Assembly (NCBI GenBank): GCA_008330645.1
Contig: VLTN01000047.1
Coordinates: 1 to 64,000, forward strand
Direction: 5' to 3'
DNA length: 64,000 nt
Source of the DNA: Cafeteria roenbergensis
Taxonomy: Eukaryota; Sar; Bigyra; Bicosoecida; Cafeteriaceae
A program made the translations under genes and the position numbers. This document shows, in pieces, positions 17,886 to 64,000 of the stretch. The notes beneath the pieces were generated by a model. The model ran no database searches. It had not been told where the DNA came from and saw only the letters and a list, made by a program, of their open reading frames with translations. Each line of letters opens with the position of its first letter. Position 1 is the first letter of the stretch.

Positions 17886-18211
17886 GCGCGCCCAGGCGCG
17901 CGTGAATGCGCGTGCGTGAGTGACTGGCGAAACCGCAAACCAGACCGCTCCTTCATCGTTCTTGCTCCGCCATCGCCATCGATGCAGTGCGCTCATTCAC
18001 GTGCACTCGCGCGCCGCTGGCCTTGGCACTTGCCCTCTCTGTCTCCCTCGCCCTCGCCCTCGCCCTCGCCCTCGCCCTCGCCCTCGCACTCGCCCTCGCC
18101 CTCGCACTCGCACTCGCACTCGCACTCGCCCTCGCACTCGCACTCGCACTCGCCCTCGCACTCTCCTTCTGCTGCAGCTGCTGCGCTGGGCACTCTCTGC
18201 CCCGGGCGGCC
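17886..18211. other. Convergent spacer with minisatellite
   Basis: 326 bp between the RRP43 and TPR-gene stops; mostly occupied by the hexanucleotide repeat listed separately. Confidence 0.6.
18045..18163. repeat. CTCGCC/CTCGCA hexanucleotide minisatellite
   Basis: About 20 tandem hexamers of CTCGCC mixed with CTCGCA units, strictly pyrimidine-biased on the plus strand (GGCGAG on the minus strand). Because it is a multiple of three it opens spurious ORFs (Pro-Ser and Gly-Glu repeats). It sits between two convergent stop codons. Confidence 0.95.
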
Positions 18212-53196: not shown

Positions 53197-56100
53197 ATGG
53201 CTGCGAGTTCCGAGCTTGCATTTTTCGAGGAGCACGAGAGGTTCGTAGCGCTCGTCTCGGAGCTGGGAGCCCTCGACAATGCTCTCCCGGAGGACGCAGC
53301 CCGCGCCAAAGCGCTCGTGAAAGAGGGGGCAGATATCGTGAGCCCCGACTTGGCCGAGTCCGGTGGCCTCCCACCGCCTGCCCGTCGGGCTGGGCGTGGC
53401 AGCAGCTGTGCTGGGCAACGGCGGTTTGCTGCACCCGTTGTGGGTGGCCGGGCGCCTGCTCCTGCGTGCTGTGGGGCGCCGCCCGCGCTCGAGCAGTGCC
53501 GCATGCTAGCGCGTGTTGCGATTCTCCACGGCTGGCTGCCTGCTCATGTGCTGCGCTTCGGGGCGGGGCGGGCGGGCGGGATGGCGATCATGCGGCGACC
53601 TCGTCAGCTCCCCGCGTACCCGCAAGAGAGTTGGTGCTTCGCAGCTGGACAAGTACCAAGAACAGTCCCATCTTCTCGACAAGCACATGGAATCCATGGC
53701 CAAGCCGCTGATGGACCGTGCTCGCGACGACCTGAGAGCCATTCGGGCCGCCCACGTGAAGAAATCGAGCGAGGCTGGGAGCGGCTTCGCGCTGCAGCTG
53801 CTGGACGCGCCCGTGATGCACCACTGCCTCACCCTGGCGTACCTGCTGTGCAAGACGCGCGGCTGGAAGCGCGTCATCACCTTCTTTCCGCACGAAGCGG
53901 CAGACCTGGAACCTTGCGTTGCGGCTCTCCTGTCGCTCGACTCTGAAGGCACAACTCACTGGAAGAGCCGGTACGTGCTGCTGCTGTGGCTGTCAGTGCT
54001 GGTGCTAGCGCCCTTTCCGGTGCACACCATCGACTCAGGAGACCTGGGGCCTGCAGCCGCGGCGCTGGCAGCGGCGGCGGAGGGGGCCCTGTCAACCGTC
54101 CCCACGTTTGGCACTGGGGACCCCTGGGGCGGGGGCATTGTGGGGACCATTCTGTGCGTGTGTCAGGGGTGCCTGGGCTCCGCAGGTCCGGTCCGAGACG
54201 CAGCGGCTGCTTGCGTTGGCAGGCTGTTGACCCGGCCGGATCTGGAGACGAGCGTCTTGGCCGAGTTCATCGGGTGGGGGGTCAAGGTTATCGAGGCGAC
54301 CTGTCTCTCGCATGCGAGGGCTGACCCTGGGCTGGCAGAGCGGCTGGCCAGCGATGGTGCAGAGGGCGATGCCGAGGAGTTGACCGCCCGGCAGCAGGCG
54401 TCACCGTCTGGCTGGGACACGTCCGCCGTCGATGATAGCGGGGCCGGCACCCCAGTGTGGTCCGGAGCTGCCGCAGCCAGCGCAGGGGCAGACCCCGCGG
54501 CTGCGTCGGGGGCTCCCGCAGGTGGCCTCGACGTGTTCGTCGTGACCGGCGTGCTGGCCGCAATTGTCCGTGCCTTCAAGCACGGCCAGCGCGACTCCCT
54601 TGCCGATGCCGCCGGCGAGGCCTTTTGCCGAATCTCGCAGGTGGCGGCAAGCGAGCAGGGCCAGCTGCTGCGTTCGTCGGCAAGCCTTCGCCGGCTGCTT
54701 GTCAAGCTCTCGCAGCGAACTGGGCTGGTGTACCTGCCCCCCCGCGTTGCTAGCTGGCGCTACCAACGAGGCCAGCGGTCACTGCTGGATAACCTCCGTG
54801 GTGCGGGGCCAGCCGCAGCTCTCCCCAGTCGCGCTCGCGATGCCGAGGAGCCCGAGGCCGACGACGATTTCGACATCGAGCCCGTGGTGGAAGACGTGAT
54901 CGACAGCCTCCTCACTGGGCTCCGCGACCACGACACCATTGTTCGGTGGTCGGCTGCCAAGGGGATCGGCCGGGTGGCTGGCCGGCTTCCCAGGGAGTTT
55001 GCCGACGAGGTGGTGGAGGCCGTGGCCACGCTGCTTGACCGAGCGGAGGGTGATGGCGCATGGCACGGCGGGTGCCTGGCGCTGGCCGAGCTGGCTCGGC
55101 GCGGGCTCCTCTTGCCAGCAAGGCTCTCAGATGTCGTGCCACGCGTGGTATCTGCGCTTCAGTTCGACGAGCGCAGAGGCGCGACCTCTGTGGGCTCGCA
55201 CGTCCGGGACGCTGCTTGCTACGTCTGCTGGGCTTTCGCCCGCGCCTATTCTCCCAGCGTCATGCGCCCCTGGGTTCGACCGCTTGCGGCCGCTCTCCTC
55301 TGTGTGGCGCTCTTCGACCGTGAGGTGAACTGCAGGCGCGCCGCTGCTGCAGCCTTCCAGGAGAGCGTGGGGCGTCAGGGGGCTGACAACTTCCCGCACG
55401 GCATCGCGATCCTGACGGCTGCTGACTACTTCAGCCTGGGCAACCGCGCCCACGCGTTCACCCATGTGGCCCGCCAGGTTGCAACGTTCGCGACCTACCG
55501 GGGCGCGCTGCTGGAGCACCTAGTTGGCGTCAAACTCCGCCACTGGGACGTTGACGTGCGCCGGCTCTCTGCGCGGGCCCTGGCGTACTTGGCGCCCCTT
55601 CAGCCCGAGTGGGCCGCGTCCGACCTGCTTCCACGTCTGACCGCCGAGACGACGAGTGCCGACCTGCTCGTCAGGCACGGCGCAACGCTTGCGATCGCGG
55701 AGGTGCTGCTGTCTTTGGCAAGGCTGTCCAACTTTCAGGCGCTCATTCCCTACTCTGTGATGCACAACATCCGCGCCGTGGTGCCTCGTGCGGAGAAGGT
55801 CAGAGTGTATCGGGGCCGTGGGGGGCTGCTTGTACGCGAGGCCATGTGCCGCCTCATCGAGGTCTTCGTCCTTGCACGGCTGCCGCTGGGCAGGAAGGGG
55901 GCCCTCCGACTGCTGAAGACGGTCGATGAGTGCCTCGGGCACGCTCACGAGAGCGTTCAGATCGCTGCTGCAGCGGCGTTTGCAGCCCTGACGCGCACCG
56001 CGCTGGGCCGCCCGGAGGCAGAGCTGCGGCAACGACTCTGCCTCCGCTACGCCGACCTGGTCAACTCCGGCGAGAACGCTGCTGTTCGTCGAGGCGCCGC

Positions 56101-58594
56101 ACTGGCGCTTGGTCAGCTGCCGTCGACTCTCTTTGGTGCCACAGTTGCCCCAGAGGTGGCAGCCGCGCCAAGCCCCTCAGCGGCGCCGCGTGGCCGCACG
56201 GGGACTGGCCGCACAGCAGGGCCGAGGCGCCGTGTTGCTGCGAGGCCAGCGCTGGTGTTGGACCCGGCGGCGGCGACTGGCCAGGCAACTCTGGCAGCAG
56301 TGGTATCTGCGCTGTGCGAAGCAACTCGTCCCGAGCCCGTTGTGTCACGGCGGGACGCTGAAACCAGGCGCAACGCCGTTCAAGCGCTGACGTCCTTGGT
56401 CGAGGAGCTCGGAGTGGCGACCAGTGTTCCGCGATCTGAGAGCGCCAAGTCGCCAGACTGCGCCAGCAGCAACGCCGAGCGCACCTTCGCCGGGATGGGA
56501 CCGGAACAGCTGCAACAGCTGTGGCATGCCGTGTGTGACTCCACTGGCGACTACGCCACGGATACCCGAGGGGACGTCGGCTCGTGGGTCCGCATCGCTG
56601 CGGCTGACTGCGTTTGTCGGCTGACGCGCCTCTTGGCTGTGGTGCCAACCCGGCTGTCGCTTGGCCTGGTCACTCGAGGCGCGCCTCCTTTTGTTGGGCC
56701 ACAGGCAGGCGCCGACGGATGGGCTGCCAACGCTCGCCTGATCCGGGCCGGAGGGGTGGCTCCAGGTGATGCGGTGGTGCACTCGCGACTCGGAGACGGG
56801 GTGCTCGTGAGCCTGAACTCAGCCGGGGCTGTCGCTGTTGTGGACTTCTCGGGGTCGCGCGGTGTCGGGCGGTGGTATTGCCCGTATGGGAAGGCGTCCG
56901 TCGCTGTGGCCGATCTCGAGTTCACCGCCCTGCCGGTCGCCGACGCCTGGGAGCGGGCGGGCGCCCCAGGGTTCCCACACTGCCTTCGGGGGGGACTGTC
57001 TTCAGCTGGCCGCGACTTGCCCACCGCTGCGCATCGTGCTGCAGTTGTGGATGCCCTCGAGGCAGATGTTGCAGACCGCGGCCTCGGGGCCCCTTCGCGA
57101 GTCGACCCCGCGAGCCTGCTTGGACCTGAGCGCGCGGCACAGGCAATCGGGTGCCTCCTTCGGCTGGCAGTCGAAAAGCAAGACCGCGTGCGATCGGCGG
57201 CAGGAAGGGCACTTTCGAGGCTGCTTTGGGACAGCGCCGTCCCGCCACTTGCAATCCCTGCCCCCTTTTTGCCCCGCCTCCGTGATCTCGTGCCTCCCTC
57301 GGTCAATGCGTCTGATGAAGCGCCTCCCACCTCTTTGCCTCAGATTTTTGAAGCGTTCGAGCGCGCCCAGCGCCTCCGAGCAGCTCGGATCCACGACGAG
57401 GAGCCGAGCGGGGAGGACATTGAGGATGAATCGCCCAGCGACGGCATTCCTGGGCGCGCACTCCCGAAGCCGACTCTCCGAGCCAGCCCGAGCAGCGAGG
57501 CCAACTTCGCAGCGCCCGACGTTGTGTTCCCACGGATGGTCCCGTTGCTCTCGATCCCGGATCCAGTGTACGCTCGGGGGCTTGCGGAGGGCTTGAGCCT
57601 TGCAGTTGGTGGCTTGTCGGAGTCCGTTGTGAAGTGCAGCACCTCGACACTTGCAGCGTGGGCCCGTGCAGCAGGGGAGCCAAAGGGCGACCGAACGGGG
57701 CTTGAGACGTTGCTGTGGAACTTGCTGCTGCTGCTGCGCGGTCGCATCGCCAAGGTGCCCGCAGGCAGCGGCGGAGAGCAAGCTTCTGCTGCAGGCAAGC
57801 CTTCTCGAGATTCAACACTTCAACCCGACTCGGATGAGCCAGCATCTCTTGCCAGCCAGGCGACCGGATTCAGAGTCGAGTCCCGCCTAGTGGTTCCCGT
57901 GTTGCGCACGCTTCATGTGCTGCTTGCCCAGGGCCGCGCCGGTGAGGGCTCTGCGAAGGACGGGCGGTGGGCTCGCGAAGCCATCCCGCTGATTCGCTAT
58001 CGCGTCATGCGCTCGAAGGACCCCGTTCGGGTCATGTCCGCGAGCGACGTGCTATTGGCGATGGTGGGTCTCCGGCAGCCAATCGGCGCTGCAGCATTGC
58101 GAACCGTTCTGGACTTTCTGGCCCACCCGTTCCCCAAGGTGCGCCGCATCACGGGAGAGCGGTTGTTTTCCACGCTGATGATCTTTGACGACCTTTTCAA
58201 AACGGACGCCCAGCCCGAGACGTCCGACCACGGACAGGTCTCGTCGGGTGCAGGGGCTGAGGAAGCAGTACCTGGTGGCGAACGGCCAGCATCGTGGATC
58301 CAGGCGTTGCGAGAGGCAGACCCGAGCGAAACGGCTGTCATAGGCTTTTTCGGTTGCGACCCGGATGGCGCAATGGCAATCCTGTCCTCGACTGCTTGGG
58401 ACGGTGACGAAGCTGACGTTGTCGCTGCCCGCGACGTGCTCTACACCATGCTGGGGGTGGCCGCACCTGCGGCCAGGGTTGGCGCATTGCGAAGCGACGG
58501 CGAGCGATGGGGCTACCCTTCCCAAGACTCGAGCACAGCAACAGCGGAAGGTGCCGACAGCTACCTTGCGCTTGTGCGAGAGGTCGGATACTAG
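53197..58594 (+). CDS. TBCD: Tubulin-specific chaperone D (cofactor D)
   Basis: Cofactor that captures beta-tubulin and, with cofactors C and E, forms the alpha/beta heterodimer. Exon 1 53197-53337 and exon 2 53645-58594 (307-bp GTGAGC…CAG intron, phase 0) give 1696 aa, against ~1200 in human. Diagnostic block right after the join: LDKYQEQSHLLDKHMESMAK, then CKTRGWKRVITFFPHEAADL and RYVLLLWLSVLVLAPFPVHT. HEAT/Armadillo repeats continue, including DHDTIVRWSAAKGIGRVAGR, VGSHVRDAACYVCWAFARAY and DREVNCRRAAAAAFQESVGR, all conserved in TBCD. Extra length comes from Ala/Gly linkers and a compact insert at ~1085-1144. Exon 2 is a 4.95-kb uninterrupted coding exon. Divergent from the SDS3-like gene with a 239-bp spacer; the stop is 106 bp before the tRNA array. 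Confidence 0.95.
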
Positions 58595-58994
58595 GAACCT
58601 CCTGGCGGTGGGCATGCCAGTGACAGTGTGTGACTTGCTGGGCTGTCAGCCCCAAAGCGATGTCTCTGCCATGCACTTTTGCTCAAGTCAAAGAGACCTA
58701 CCCGGTTCCGGGGGCACCGTATGGGCGCGGTGGGCAGTGCGGGCGGCCGGCTTGGCGGGGATCCTGCAGGGCGGCGCTGTTCACGCACGGGGATGCACGT
58801 GTTCGGGCCGGCGCCCCGCGCGGATCCACCCGGGCTCGGCGTGTGCCGTGGGCGGGAAGCGGGTGGGTGGTATGGGCGGGGTAGGGGTGGTGGTTGCGCT
58901 TGGAATGCTGCAGCGGGGCCAGTGTCACGCTCATTGCTGTGCCTGTGAGCAGGCGTCACAACCGGGTATGTAAAATCTGCGCTGCCGATCATCT

Positions 58995-59067
58995 GCTTGT
59001 GTAGCTCAGTTGGTAGAGCATAGGACTCTTAATCCTGTAGTCGCGGGTTCGAGCCCCGTCATGAGCT
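58995..59067 (+). tRNA. trnK-CUU: tRNA-Lys (anticodon CUU), copy 1
   Basis: A complete 73-nt cloverleaf without intron. Acceptor GCTTGTG/CATGAGC (7 bp with two G-U pairs); U8-A9; D stem GCTC/GAGC; anticodon stem TAGGA/TCCTG with loop CTCTTAA, giving CUU; 5-nt variable loop; T stem GCGGG/CCCGT with loop TTCGAGC. A and B box promoters are consensus (TAGCTCAGTTGG, GGTTCGAGCCC). T5 terminator at 59072-59076. N73 is U, whereas eukaryotic tRNA-Lys normally has G (or A). CCA is not encoded. Confidence 0.97.
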
Positions 59068-59634
59068 GACATTTTTGCACCCGCAACGCCCAGTCCGCAG
59101 CGCTCGCCCCCACAGCGTGTGTTGGGCTGATTCGGCGTTTTTGTGCACTGGCGGTGTGGCGACGGCGGGTTTGCTGCGGGGACGCACGGGCGACGCACGG
59201 CCGGCCCGATTCGGCGAGAGCACAGTCAGCGCGCCGTTTGTGGCGTCGGTTGCCGGCCTTCACCACCGATAGCGCGTGTGAATCCCGCCGTCGGGGCCTG
59301 GGGGACAGCCTGGGGCGCGTGCGGGCCACTCCGGTGGAGGCCCGGTTCCGGGGGCACCGTATGGGCGCGGTGGGCAGTGCGGGCGGCCGGCTTGGCGGGG
59401 ATCCTGCAGGGCGGCGCTGTTCACGCACGGGGATGCACGTGTTCGGGCTGGCGCCCCGCGCGGATCCACCCGGGCTCGGCGTGTGCCGTGGGCGGGAAGC
59501 GGGTGGGTGGTATGGGCGGGGTAGGGGTGGTGGTTGCGCTTGGAATGCTGCAGCGGGGCCAGTGTTGCGCTCATTGCTGTGCCTGTGAGCAGGCGTCACA
59601 ACCGGGTATGTAAAATCTGCGCTGCCGATCATCT

Positions 59635-59707
59635 GCTTGTGTAGCTCAGTTGGTAGAGCATAGGACTCTTAATCCTGTAGTCGCGGGTTCGAGCCCCGTC
59701 ATGAGCT
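59635..59707 (+). tRNA. trnK-CUU: tRNA-Lys (CUU), copy 2
   Basis: Identical to copy 1, 640 bp downstream; T5 terminator at 59712-59716. Confidence 0.97.
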
Positions 59708-60274
59708 GACATTTTTGCACCCGCAACGCCCAGTCCGCAGCGCTCGCCCCCACAGCGTGTGTTGGGCTGATTCGGCGTTTTTGTGCACTGGCGGTGTGGC
59801 GACGGCGGGTTTGCTGCGGGGACGCACGGGCGACGCACGGCCGGCCCGATTCGGCGAGAGCACAGTCAGCGCGCCGTTTGTGGCGTCGGTTGCCGGCCTT
59901 CACCACCGATAGCGCGTGTGAATCCCGCCGTCGGGGCCTGGGGGACAGCCTGGGGCGCGTGCGGGCCACTCCGGTGGAGGCCCGGTTCCGGGGGCACCGT
60001 ATGGGCGCGGTGGGCAGTGCGGGCGGCCGGCTTGGCGGGGATCCTGCAGGGCGGCGCTGTTCACGCATGGGGATGCACGTGTTCGGGCCGGCGCCCCGCG
60101 CGGATCCACCCGGGCTCGGCGTGTGCCGTGGGCGGGAAGCGGGTGGGTGGTATGGGCGGGGTAGGGGTGGTGGTTGCGCTTGGAATGCTGCAGCGGGGCC
60201 AGTGTTGCGCTCATTGCTGTGCCTGTGAGCAGGCGTCACAACCGGGTATGTAAAATCTGCGCTGCCGATCATCT

Positions 60275-60347
60275 GCTTGTGTAGCTCAGTTGGTAGAGCA
60301 TAGGACTCTTAATCCTGTAGTCGCGGGTTCGAGCCCCGTCATGAGCT
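60275..60347 (+). tRNA. trnK-CUU: tRNA-Lys (CUU), copy 3
   Basis: Identical to copy 1; T5 terminator at 60352-60356. First unit of the alternating part of the array. Confidence 0.97.
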
Positions 60348-60914
60348 GACATTTTTGCACCCGCAACGCCCAGTCCGCAGCGCTCGCCCCCACAGCGTGT
60401 GTTGGGCTGATTCGGCGTTTTTGTGCACTGGCGGTATGGCGACGGCGGGCCTGCTGCGGGGACGCACGGGCGACGCACGGCCGGCCCGATTCGGCGAGAG
60501 CACAGTCAGCGCGCCGTTTGTGGCGTCGGTTGCCGGCCTTCACCGCCGATAGCGCGTGTGAATCCCGCCGTCGGCGCCTGGGGGACAGCCTGGGGCGCGT
60601 GCGGGCCACTCCGGTGGAGGCCCGGTTCCGGGGGCACCGTATGGGCGCGGTGGGCAGTGCGGGCGGCCGGCTTGGCGGGGATCCTGCAGGGCGGCGCTGT
60701 TCACGCATGGGGATGCACGTGTTCGGGCCGGCGCCCCGCGCGGATCCACCCGGGCTCGGCGTGTGCCGTGGGCGGGAAGCGGGTGGGTGGTATGGGCGGG
60801 GTAGGGGTGGTGGTTGCGCTTGGAATGCTGCAGCGGGGCCAGTGTTGCGCTCATTGCTGTGCCTGTGAGCAGGCGTCACAACCGGGTATGTAAAATCTGC
60901 GCTGCCGATCATCT

Positions 60915-60987
60915 GCTTGTGTAGCTCAGTTGGTAGAGCATAGGACTCTTAATCCTGTAGTCGCGGGTTCGAGCCCCGTCATGAGCT
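60915..60987 (+). tRNA. trnK-CUU: tRNA-Lys (CUU), copy 4
   Basis: Identical to copy 1; its downstream spacer is the 641-bp variant (one extra base near 61317). Confidence 0.97.
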
Positions 60988-61555
60988 GACATTTTTGCAC
61001 CCGCAACGCCCAGTCCGCAGCGCTCGCCCCCACAGCGTGTGTTGGGCTGATTCGGCGTTTTTGTGCGCGGGCAGTGTGGCGACGGCGGGCCTGCTGCGGG
61101 GACGCACGGGCGACGCACGGCCGGCCCGATTCGGCGAGAGCACAGTCAGCGCGCCGTTTGTGGCGTCGGTTGCCGGCCTTCACCGCCGACAGCGCGTGTG
61201 AATCCCGCCGTCGGGGCCTGGGGGACAGCCTGGGGCGCGTGCGGGCCACTCCGGTGGAGGCCCGGTTCCGGGGGCACCGTATGGGCGCGGTGGGCAGTGC
61301 GGGCGGCCGGCTTGGGCGCGGATCCTGCAGGGCGGCGCTGTTCACGCACGGGGATGCACGTGTTCGGGCCGGCGCCCCGCGCGGATCCACCCGGGCTCGG
61401 CGTGTGCCGTGGGCGGGAAGCGGGTGGGTGGTATGGGCGGGGTAGGGGTGGTGGTTGCGCTTGGAATGCTGCAGCGGGGCCAGTGTTGCGCTCATTGCTG
61501 TGCCTGTGAGCAGGCGTCACAACCGGGTATGTAAAATCTGCGCTGCCGATCATCT

Positions 61556-61628
61556 GCTTGTGTAGCTCAGTTGGTAGAGCATAGGACTCTTAATCCTGTA
61601 GTCGCGGGTTCGAGCCCCGTCATGAGCT
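61556..61628 (+). tRNA. trnK-CUU: tRNA-Lys (CUU), copy 5
   Basis: Identical to copy 1; T5 terminator at 61633-61637. Confidence 0.97.
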
Positions 61629-62195
61629 GACATTTTTGCACCCGCAACGCCCAGTCCGCAGCGCTCGCCCCCACAGCGTGTGTTGGGCTGATTCGGCGTT
61701 TTTGTGCACTGGCGGTATGGCGACGGCGGGCCTGCTGCGGGGACGCACGGGCGACGCACGGCCGGCCCGATTCGGCGAGAGCACAGTCAGCGCGCCGTTT
61801 GTGGCGTCGGTTGCCGGCCTTCACCACCGATAGCGCGTGTGAATCCCGCCGTCGGCGCCTGGGGGACAGCCTGGGGCGCGTGCGGGCCACTCCGGTGGAG
61901 GCCCGGTTCCGGGGGCACCGTATGGGCGCGGTGGGCAGTGCGGGCGGCCGGCTTGGCGGGGATCCTGCAGGGCGGCGCTGTTCACGCATGGGGATGCACG
62001 TGTTCGGGCTGGCGCCCCGCGCGGATCCACCCGGGCTCGGCGTGTGCCGTGGGCGGGAAGCGGGTGGGTGGTATGGGCGGGGTAGGGGTGGTGGTTGCGC
62101 TTGGAATGCTGCAGCGGGGCCAGTGTCGCGCTCATTGCTGTGCCTGTGAGCAGGCGTCACAACCGGGTATGTAAAATCTGCGCTGCCGATCATCT

Positions 62196-62268
62196 GCTTG
62201 TGTAGCTCAGTTGGTAGAGCATAGGACTCTTAATCCTGTAGTCGCGGGTTCGAGCCCCGTCATGAGCT
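62196..62268 (+). tRNA. trnK-CUU: tRNA-Lys (CUU), copy 6
   Basis: Identical to copy 1; downstream spacer is the same type as after copy 4 but without the extra base. Confidence 0.97.
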
Positions 62269-62835
62269 GACATTTTTGCACCCGCAACGCCCAGTCCGCA
62301 GCGCTCGCCCCCACAGCGTGTGTTGGGCTGATTCGGCGTTTTTGTGCGCGGGCAGTGTGGCGACGGCGGGCCTGCTGCGGGGACGCACGGGCGACGCACG
62401 GCCGGCCCGATTCGGCGAGAGCACAGTCAGCGCGCCGTTTGTGGCGTCGGTTGCCGGCCTTCACCGCCGACAGCGCGTGTGAATCCCGCCGTCGGGGCCT
62501 GGGGGACAGCCTGGGGCGCGTGCGGGCCACTCCGGTGGAGGCCCGGTTCCGGGGGCACCGTATGGGCGCGGTGGGCAGTGCGGGCGGCCGGCTTGGGGCG
62601 GATCCTGCAGGGCGGCGCTGTTCACGCACGGGGATGCACGTGTTCGGGCCGGCGCCCCGCGCGGATCCACCCGGGCTCGGCGTGTGCCGTGGGCGGGAAG
62701 CGGGTGGGTGGTATGGGCGGGGTAGGGGTGGTGGTTGCGCTTGGAATGCTGCAGCGGGGCCAGTGTTGCGCTCATTGCTGTGCCTGTGAGCAGGCGTCAC
62801 AACCGGGTATGTAAAATCTGCGCTGCCGATCATCT

Positions 62836-62908
62836 GCTTGTGTAGCTCAGTTGGTAGAGCATAGGACTCTTAATCCTGTAGTCGCGGGTTCGAGCCCCGT
62901 CATGAGCT
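62836..62908 (+). tRNA. trnK-CUU: tRNA-Lys (CUU), copy 7
   Basis: Identical to copy 1; T5 terminator at 62913-62917. Confidence 0.97.
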
Positions 62909-63475
62909 GACATTTTTGCACCCGCAACGCCCAGTCCGCAGCGCTCGCCCCCACAGCGTGTGTTGGGCTGATTCGGCGTTTTTGTGCACTGGCGGTATGG
63001 CGACGGCGGGCCTGCTGCGGGGACGCACGGGCGACGCACGGCCGGCCCGATTCGGCGAGAGCACAGTCAGCGCGCCGTTTGTGGCGTCGGTTGCCGGCCT
63101 TCACCGCCGATAGCGCGTGTGAATCCCGCCGTCGGGGCCTGGGGGACAGCCTGGGGCGCGTGCGGGCCACTCCGGTGGAGGCCCGGTTCCGGGGGCACCG
63201 TATGGGCGCGGTGGGCAGTGCGGGCGGCCGGCTTGGCGGGGATCCTGCAGGGCGGCGCTGTTCACGCATGGGGATGCACGTGTTCGGGCCGGCGCCCCGC
63301 GCGGATCCACCCGGGCTCGGCGTGTGCCGTGGGCGGGAAGCGGGTGGGTGGTATGGGCGGGGTAGGGGTGGTGGTTGCGCTTGGAATGCTGCAGCGGGGC
63401 CAGTGTTGCGCTCATTGCTGTGCCTGTGAGCAGGTGTCACAACCGGGTATGTAAAATCTGCGCTGCCGATCATCT

Positions 63476-63548
63476 GCTTGTGTAGCTCAGTTGGTAGAGC
63501 ATAGGACTCTTAATCCTGTAGTCGCGGGTTCGAGCCCCGTCATGAGCT
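63476..63548 (+). tRNA. trnK-CUU: tRNA-Lys (CUU), copy 8
   Basis: Identical to copy 1; the repeat stops 103 bp downstream, where unique sequence before the cyclophilin gene begins. Confidence 0.97.
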
Positions 63549-63775
63549 GACATTTTTGCACCCGCAACGCCCAGTCCGCAGCGCTCGCCCCCACAGCGTG
63601 TGTTGGGCTGATTCGGCGTTTTTGTGCGCGGGCAGTGTGGCGACGGCGGGCTCTTTGCTGGGGTCCGGCTGGTTTGACAACCGCACTCCCTGGCTGGGAT
63701 TCACTTTGCCTCGGCAGCCTGCCTCTCCAAGTCGCACTCCCCCCACCAGCGCTGGGCTTCCCAGCTGACGAGCTC

Positions 63776-64000
63776 TCAAGCACGCACATTCTTGGCACTG
63801 GACGGAACACGCAGCTCCCCGCTGCGGGCAATGGTGAGCTGGCCGCCGCTTCCAGCCTCGAACGCCTTCTCGATCTCATGAACTACCTCCATCCCAGTCA
63901 TGACATTCCCCATCACGACATTCTGGTAGTCCATGAACGGGCTCTTTCCGAGGGCGACGTAGAATTGGGATGTGGCGTTGCCAGGTCCTCCGGGGCTGAC
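63776..64000 (-). CDS. Cyclophilin-type peptidyl-prolyl isomerase, 5'-partial
   Basis: The last 74 codons of a cyclophilin-domain protein on the minus strand, running off the window end and stopping with TGA at 63776-63778. Visible: GGPGNATSQFYVALGKSPFM, then DYQNVVMGNVMTGMEVVHEI, matching the family run in which an F/Y-x-LG-x-x-x-x-LD/MD-x-x-x-VVFG-x-V stretch is followed by G-M-x-V-V-x-x-I. The segment ends with LTIARSGELRVPS, the last beta strand, plus a short tail. Cyclophilins isomerise Xaa-Pro bonds in protein folding. The catalytic Arg and most of the active site lie outside the window, so activity and targeting cannot be judged. The 3' end of the gene lies 125 bp from the edge of the tRNA array. 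Confidence 0.88.
   Translation of the reverse strand, partial: VSPGGPGNATSQFYVALGKSPFMDYQNVVMGNVMTGMEVVHEIEKAFEAGSGGQLTIARSGELRVPSSAKNVRA

Follow-up and report, generated by a model that had tools for sequence, protein, structure and literature searches.

Among the tandem arrays of transfer RNA (tRNA) genes described to date, the closest to the array of eight tRNA-Lys(CTT) genes considered here are the monomeric ones known from oomycetes, Phytophthora infestans among them. The Lys array lies within the first 64,000 nucleotides (nt) of contig VLTN01000047.1 of the marine flagellate Cafeteria roenbergensis (assembly GCA_008330645.1), a stretch referred to below as the window. In P. infestans, about 64% of tRNA genes are reported to lie in same-gene tandem arrays, near-identical in those with monomeric units, and the authors propose unequal crossing over (PMC9584435). 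As in Cafeteria, the host is a stramenopile, near-identical units carry a single gene and have a comparable length (513 nt for Cys); the occurrence of many array families on one chromosome is listed as a further likeness to Cafeteria. The P. infestans arrays are, however, far longer, with 271 Cys genes, and codon use there shows but a modest correlation with gene number (R = 0.41; PMC9584435). The Lys array, with one tRNA per unit and units that are nearly identical, adds a member to this kind already described in a stramenopile.

Other described systems share fewer features with the Lys array. A sequence-only reading of the window had pointed to Entamoeba, where tandem units do carry tRNA genes and are homogenised within an isolate, but this parallel fits less well since units there hold up to five tRNA genes, in E. 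histolytica some with 5S RNA as well. The Entamoeba spacers are described as A+T-rich and, in the two species E. histolytica and E. dispar, as containing short tandem repeats, and the arrays make up more than 10% of the E. histolytica genome (PMC2652664); the Lys array, by contrast, has one gene per unit and a GC content of 68%. Single-gene units are nevertheless reported for Entamoeba too (PMC2652664). The tRNA-Cys cluster on Arabidopsis chromosome 5 is likewise a single-isoacceptor array, with units of about 0.42 kb whose number varies between accessions. It differs in having four to six units, 84-94% alike, that overlap annotated Helitrons and are apparently silenced, and a Helitron-like origin has been proposed for it (PMC10701932). 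At human 1q23.3 there is also a tandem tRNA-bearing repeat, but with 7.3-kb units present 9-43 times per allele (PMC4041453). Finally, homogeneous tDNA (tRNA gene) clusters are defined as genes for tRNAs of one amino acid that are separated by less than 1 kb, irrespective of the spacers, and a survey concludes that they arose many times in eukaryotes (PMC2888827). With a single isoacceptor family and gaps of 567 or 568 bp, well inside 1000 nt, the Lys array is such a cluster.

The array is present in the assembly as first described. It occupies 58701..63651 on the forward strand, with repeat edges at 58701/58702 on the left and 63650/63651 on the right, and comprises about 7.7 units of 640/641 bp, the eighth ending some 170 bp early. 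ARAGORN and the Rfam family RF00005 both place tRNA-Lys(CTT) genes on the forward strand at 58995..59067, 59635..59707, 60275..60347, 60915..60987, 61556..61628, 62196..62268, 62836..62908 and 63476..63548 (copies 1 to 8). All eight are 73 nt long and letter-identical, each scoring 66.1 bits against a gathering score of 29. The steps from one gene start to the next are 640, 640, 640, 641, 640, 640 and 640 bp, from which the spacers measure 567 or 568 bp. The identical genes on a 640-bp repeat, the coordinates, and the head-to-tail order with almost invariant 567-bp spacers claimed in the sequence-only reading were thus all recovered. A search with one unit against the whole assembly (36,303,456 bases in 167 contigs), with a tool that passes over simple repeats and words of very high frequency, matched these eight places and nowhere else in the 36.3 Mb. 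The eight unit-to-unit matches have E-values of 0 to 1.7e-237, which excludes a chance origin of the repeat. The ratio of observed to expected CpG is 1.04 in the array and 1.01 in window positions 1-58000; CpG is therefore not depleted, giving no sign of long-term methylation.

Similarity between the units extends well beyond the genes. The seven full units diverge by 1.07% on average and by 1.87% at most. Across all copies there are 17 variable columns, and the seven full units hold 15 biallelic ungapped sites, none of them inside the gene. From copy 3 to copy 8, six columns (58, 447, 449, 453, 456 and 570) set every second copy apart, and 3' of the gene one haplotype is common to copies 4, 6 and 8 and another to copies 3, 5 and 7. 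Adjacent copies accordingly differ at a mean of 7.8 sites, compared with 5.0 for copies two apart. Although the numbers are small, this alternation suggests a two-unit repeat of 1280 bp, as expected where exchange also moved in two-unit steps. In the four-gamete test 10 of 66 informative site pairs fail, which is as expected from exchange between copies but may also reflect recurrent mutation. Together, the low divergence and these failures bear out the earlier suggestion of recent expansion, ongoing homogenisation or both. Strains of Cafeteria differ by approximately 0.3-1% (average nucleotide identity 99.05-99.67%; PMC6972860). Since divergence from copy to copy is of the same order, we predict that the other strains also carry the Lys array.

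The units also have the features expected of RNA polymerase III (Pol III) genes. Copy 1 contains a B-box-like motif, GGTTCGAGCCC (59046..59056, forward strand), and is followed by a run of five Ts (59072..59076, forward strand), a candidate Pol III terminator; such a T5 run stands behind every copy. Upstream of copy 1, an A/T-rich stretch, GTATGTAAAATC (58966..58977, forward strand), spans positions -29 to -18 and is a putative promoter element. Among 84 non-redundant upstream regions of tRNA genes in the assembly, A/T content rises near -37 and at -26 to -20, and an A/T core motif is found at -32 to -15 in 54 of the 84, compared with 18 of 84 at -60 to -43. The eight copies agree throughout the 40 nt 5' of the Lys gene, while the 80 nt 3' of it are as in copy 1 in five of the eight, copies 4, 6 and 8 deviating. 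Each gene thus combines an intact fold, a B-box and a T-run, as functional Pol III tRNA genes do, and comparison of the eight copies revealed no degenerate one. The earlier designation as Pol III genes, for which the Rfam score also speaks, accordingly seems apt on sequence grounds. Given the common 40-nt upstream region, the A/T element and the T5 run, each 640-bp unit looks self-sufficient for Pol III, and each copy would presumably be transcribed.

The organisation of tRNA genes across the whole assembly is more interesting than the Lys array alone. A census recovered at least 132 nuclear tRNA genes with 31 anticodons, of which 112 sit no more than 1 kb from another tRNA gene. This fraction overstates clustering, since loci were fetched mainly where candidates clustered; when ten unfetched single hits are added, whose anticodons were read by eye from 3' tails that are identical, or nearly so (the Leu one guessed as AAG), it becomes 112 of 142. 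Of 84 neighbouring pairs, 77 have the same anticodon, 83 are for the same amino acid and 66 point the same way, and in 10,000 shuffles of the labels the number of same-anticodon pairs never exceeded 12. The family search scored 63 of 405 candidates, while the pattern searches required a near-consensus B-box and a nearby T-run, the latter waived in one of them. These searches recovered no nuclear Val, Ile, Asn or Phe tRNA genes, which makes the census incomplete; introns, unusual B-boxes or distant T-runs may account for the gap. ARAGORN calls with introns were left out of all counts, as was its tRNA-Phe at 55879-55975, which was rejected because it lies inside a protein-coding frame (tubulin cofactor D, see below) and has no Rfam match.

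The clusters are of more than one kind. Four further homogenised head-to-tail arrays resemble that of Lys: Ala-AGC (nine genes, period 828-874 bp, mean unit divergence 1.02%), Ala-CGC (seven genes, 474-475 bp, 0.65%), Gly-GCC (seven genes, 702-708 bp, 1.06%) and Glu-CTC (nine in tandem, 571-585 bp, 1.68%). In these four, 24 of 36, 5 of 10, 7 of 10 and 18 of 36 site pairs fail the four-gamete test. Single-isoacceptor arrays, which the sequence-only reading had called uncommon, are therefore not so in this genome, both on account of these four, with seven to nine genes each, and of the general clustering by anticodon. A second kind of cluster, exemplified by Cys, His, Pro-AGG, Trp and Tyr, has genes with few or no differences, but their 200-bp flanks resemble one another no more than do flanks taken from tRNA genes of differing amino acid (control medians 0.59 and 0.60, 95% points 0.65 and 0.64). 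Others are intermediate, with alternating Leu AAG and CAG genes, inverted Asp pairs, or Ser-AGA and Ser-CGA genes with partly similar flanks. When the units of the five homogenised arrays were compared by blastn, the Ala genes matched each other, 42 bp matched within the Gly and Glu genes, and the Gly and Glu spacers matched over two stretches (33 and 29 bp); for the Lys unit there was no match in any other array. With spacers so largely unrelated, a carrier sequence common to all arrays is not supported.

Gene number in this census follows codon use. Over the 31 anticodons, Spearman and Pearson coefficients are 0.93 and 0.87 with a larger codon set (8701 codons from 17 frames chosen by a codon model) and 0.81 and 0.81 with a Pfam-supported set (5615 codons, six frames). 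For lysine, the census has eight Lys-CTT genes and one Lys-TTT, and AAG and AAA codons stand at 261:16 in the larger set and 96:15 in the Pfam-supported one. The four most-used anticodons all fall within the five homogenised arrays, with a chance probability of 1.6e-4, but this is a post hoc observation confined to the larger set; in codon use, Asp-GTC comes second in the Pfam-supported one.

We consider it likely that the array consists of Pol III units that were duplicated in tandem, homogenised, and kept as the dosage locus for the main Lys tRNA. A single tRNA-Lys gene lying between two convergent protein genes would have been duplicated in tandem and, through unequal crossing over that moved in part by two-unit steps, would have reached eight copies. 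Exchange or conversion between copies would then have held the spacers about 99% alike, and selection for tRNA supply would have retained the copies. The left-hand neighbour is a tubulin-cofactor-D-like open frame (53513..58594, forward strand; Pfam PF25767, 1.4e-108), and the right-hand one the 3' part of a cyclophilin-type open frame (63776..64000, reverse strand; PF00160, 1.1e-26) that extends beyond the window end (L011:277-876). The array fills the gap between these convergent genes, a position that would tolerate expansion, no promoter being disrupted.

Of the readings considered, selection for dosage acting on genes duplicated locally has the best support, its main rival being neutral drift in array length. 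Several observations tell against the former. Without six array families the Spearman coefficients remain as high as 0.91 and 0.76 (25 anticodons), so that the relation between gene number and codon use is genome-wide and not special to arrays. The number of Lys-CTT genes lies above the codon-use trend, AAG accounting for 17-30 per 1000 codons. Four-gamete failures can be produced by recurrent mutation, and some of the variable sites are C/T at CpG. Lastly, the lack of variants inside the gene does not reach significance when this array is taken by itself (chance 0.16), and was rejected as proof of selection.

The excess over the trend is what would be seen if unequal exchange had simply left array length to drift, the eight copies being unselected. 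Such neutral expansion would also accord with the modest relation between tRNA numbers and codons in P. infestans, where the most expanded families are reported to serve rare codons (PMC9584435), and with the variation in ribosomal DNA (rDNA) from 18 to 83 copies across Cafeteria strains (PMC6972860). It does not, however, lead one to expect either so close a match between codon use and gene number across the 31 anticodons (Spearman 0.93 or 0.81) or an array devoid of degenerate genes, and we regard it as unlikely, though less so than the remaining alternatives.

The copy number or the identity of the units could also be wrong in the assembly, through inflation, collapse or over-homogenisation by polishing. 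We take the assembly to be that of C. roenbergensis strain BVI, whose contigs were built with Canu and then polished with PacBio and Illumina reads according to the Cafeteria genome paper. Polishing with mapped short reads could even out repeats, and the BVI assembly, at 36.3 Mb, falls short of the approximately 40 Mb estimated from k-mers of strain E4-10P (PMC6972860). Yet BVI is reported to have 45x PacBio coverage (PMC6972860), and Canu contigs were split at unexpected drops in coverage whereas this one crosses the array. Moreover, the copies bear distinct variants and the same pattern recurs in other arrays with other periods. An artefact of this sort is therefore improbable.

Judged from the array edges and the search for further copies of the unit, no transposase or Helitron search having been made, it is very unlikely that a mobile element, for example one resembling a Helitron, captured the tRNA gene and built the array. 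There is a 7-nt inverted match between the two edges of the Lys array, and the Glu array has one too, but the edges of the other three arrays match over only 3-4 nt and the unit has no copies elsewhere in the assembly. As 96 of 1431 pairs of 30-bp stretches drawn at random reach 7 nt, the edge match is too weak to be taken for the mark of a transposon. Equally unlikely is a mainly non-translational role, such as that of an insulator or replication-fork barrier, for although the array sits between convergent genes and the human tRNA tandem repeat has been implicated as a boundary element (PMC4041453), the numbers of tRNA genes go with codon use.

Having favoured dosage selection for the Lys locus, we can extend it, with much less assurance, to most cytosolic tRNA species, each of which might, in this free-living bicosoecid, occupy its own locus resembling a miniature rDNA, with copies set by codon demand, the anticodons in greatest demand held in homogenised arrays and array length changing fast from strain to strain; we think this less likely than not. 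If it is true, the tRNA-gene organisation shared with oomycetes could be old in stramenopiles. In any case, genomes whose recovered tRNA genes are mostly grouped by anticodon now include that of a compact, free-living stramenopile, and short-read assemblies may undercount such genes. Since gene numbers here track codon use closely, unlike in the long oomycete arrays, this protist, which is in culture and has genome sequences for four strains, would allow one to test how array length relates to tRNA supply and growth. Among the open-licence papers listed, none dealt with nuclear tRNA arrays in Cafeteria, which does not establish their absence from print, and the word 'tandem' does not occur in the main text of the Cafeteria genome paper.

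Some individual loci merit mention. L030 (C27:305655-308964) is a Leu array built of two-gene units of about 0.85 kb, so that AAG genes take turns with CAG genes, and has outward single copies at the sides. The eight Asp-GTC genes of L032 (C54:36041-43406) form four divergent pairs (- + - + - + - +) with two recurring kinds of upstream sequence. In L031 (C28:194399 region) a Leu-TAA gene with a Ser-like B-box tail lies among Ser-AGA genes, forming the only mixed-amino-acid pair of the 84. Seven matches in L045, L047, C34, C58, C86 and C88 belong to a repeat in which the B-box-like GGTTCGAGTCCTGACAA is followed by a T-run. ARAGORN detected no tRNA in L045 and L047, and the repeat is perhaps Pol III-derived. 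Within the window, about 20 CCCTCG hexamers stand in tandem at 18026-18163. Contig 167 of the assembly (43,160 bp) reads as a mitochondrion, with TGA encoding tryptophan.

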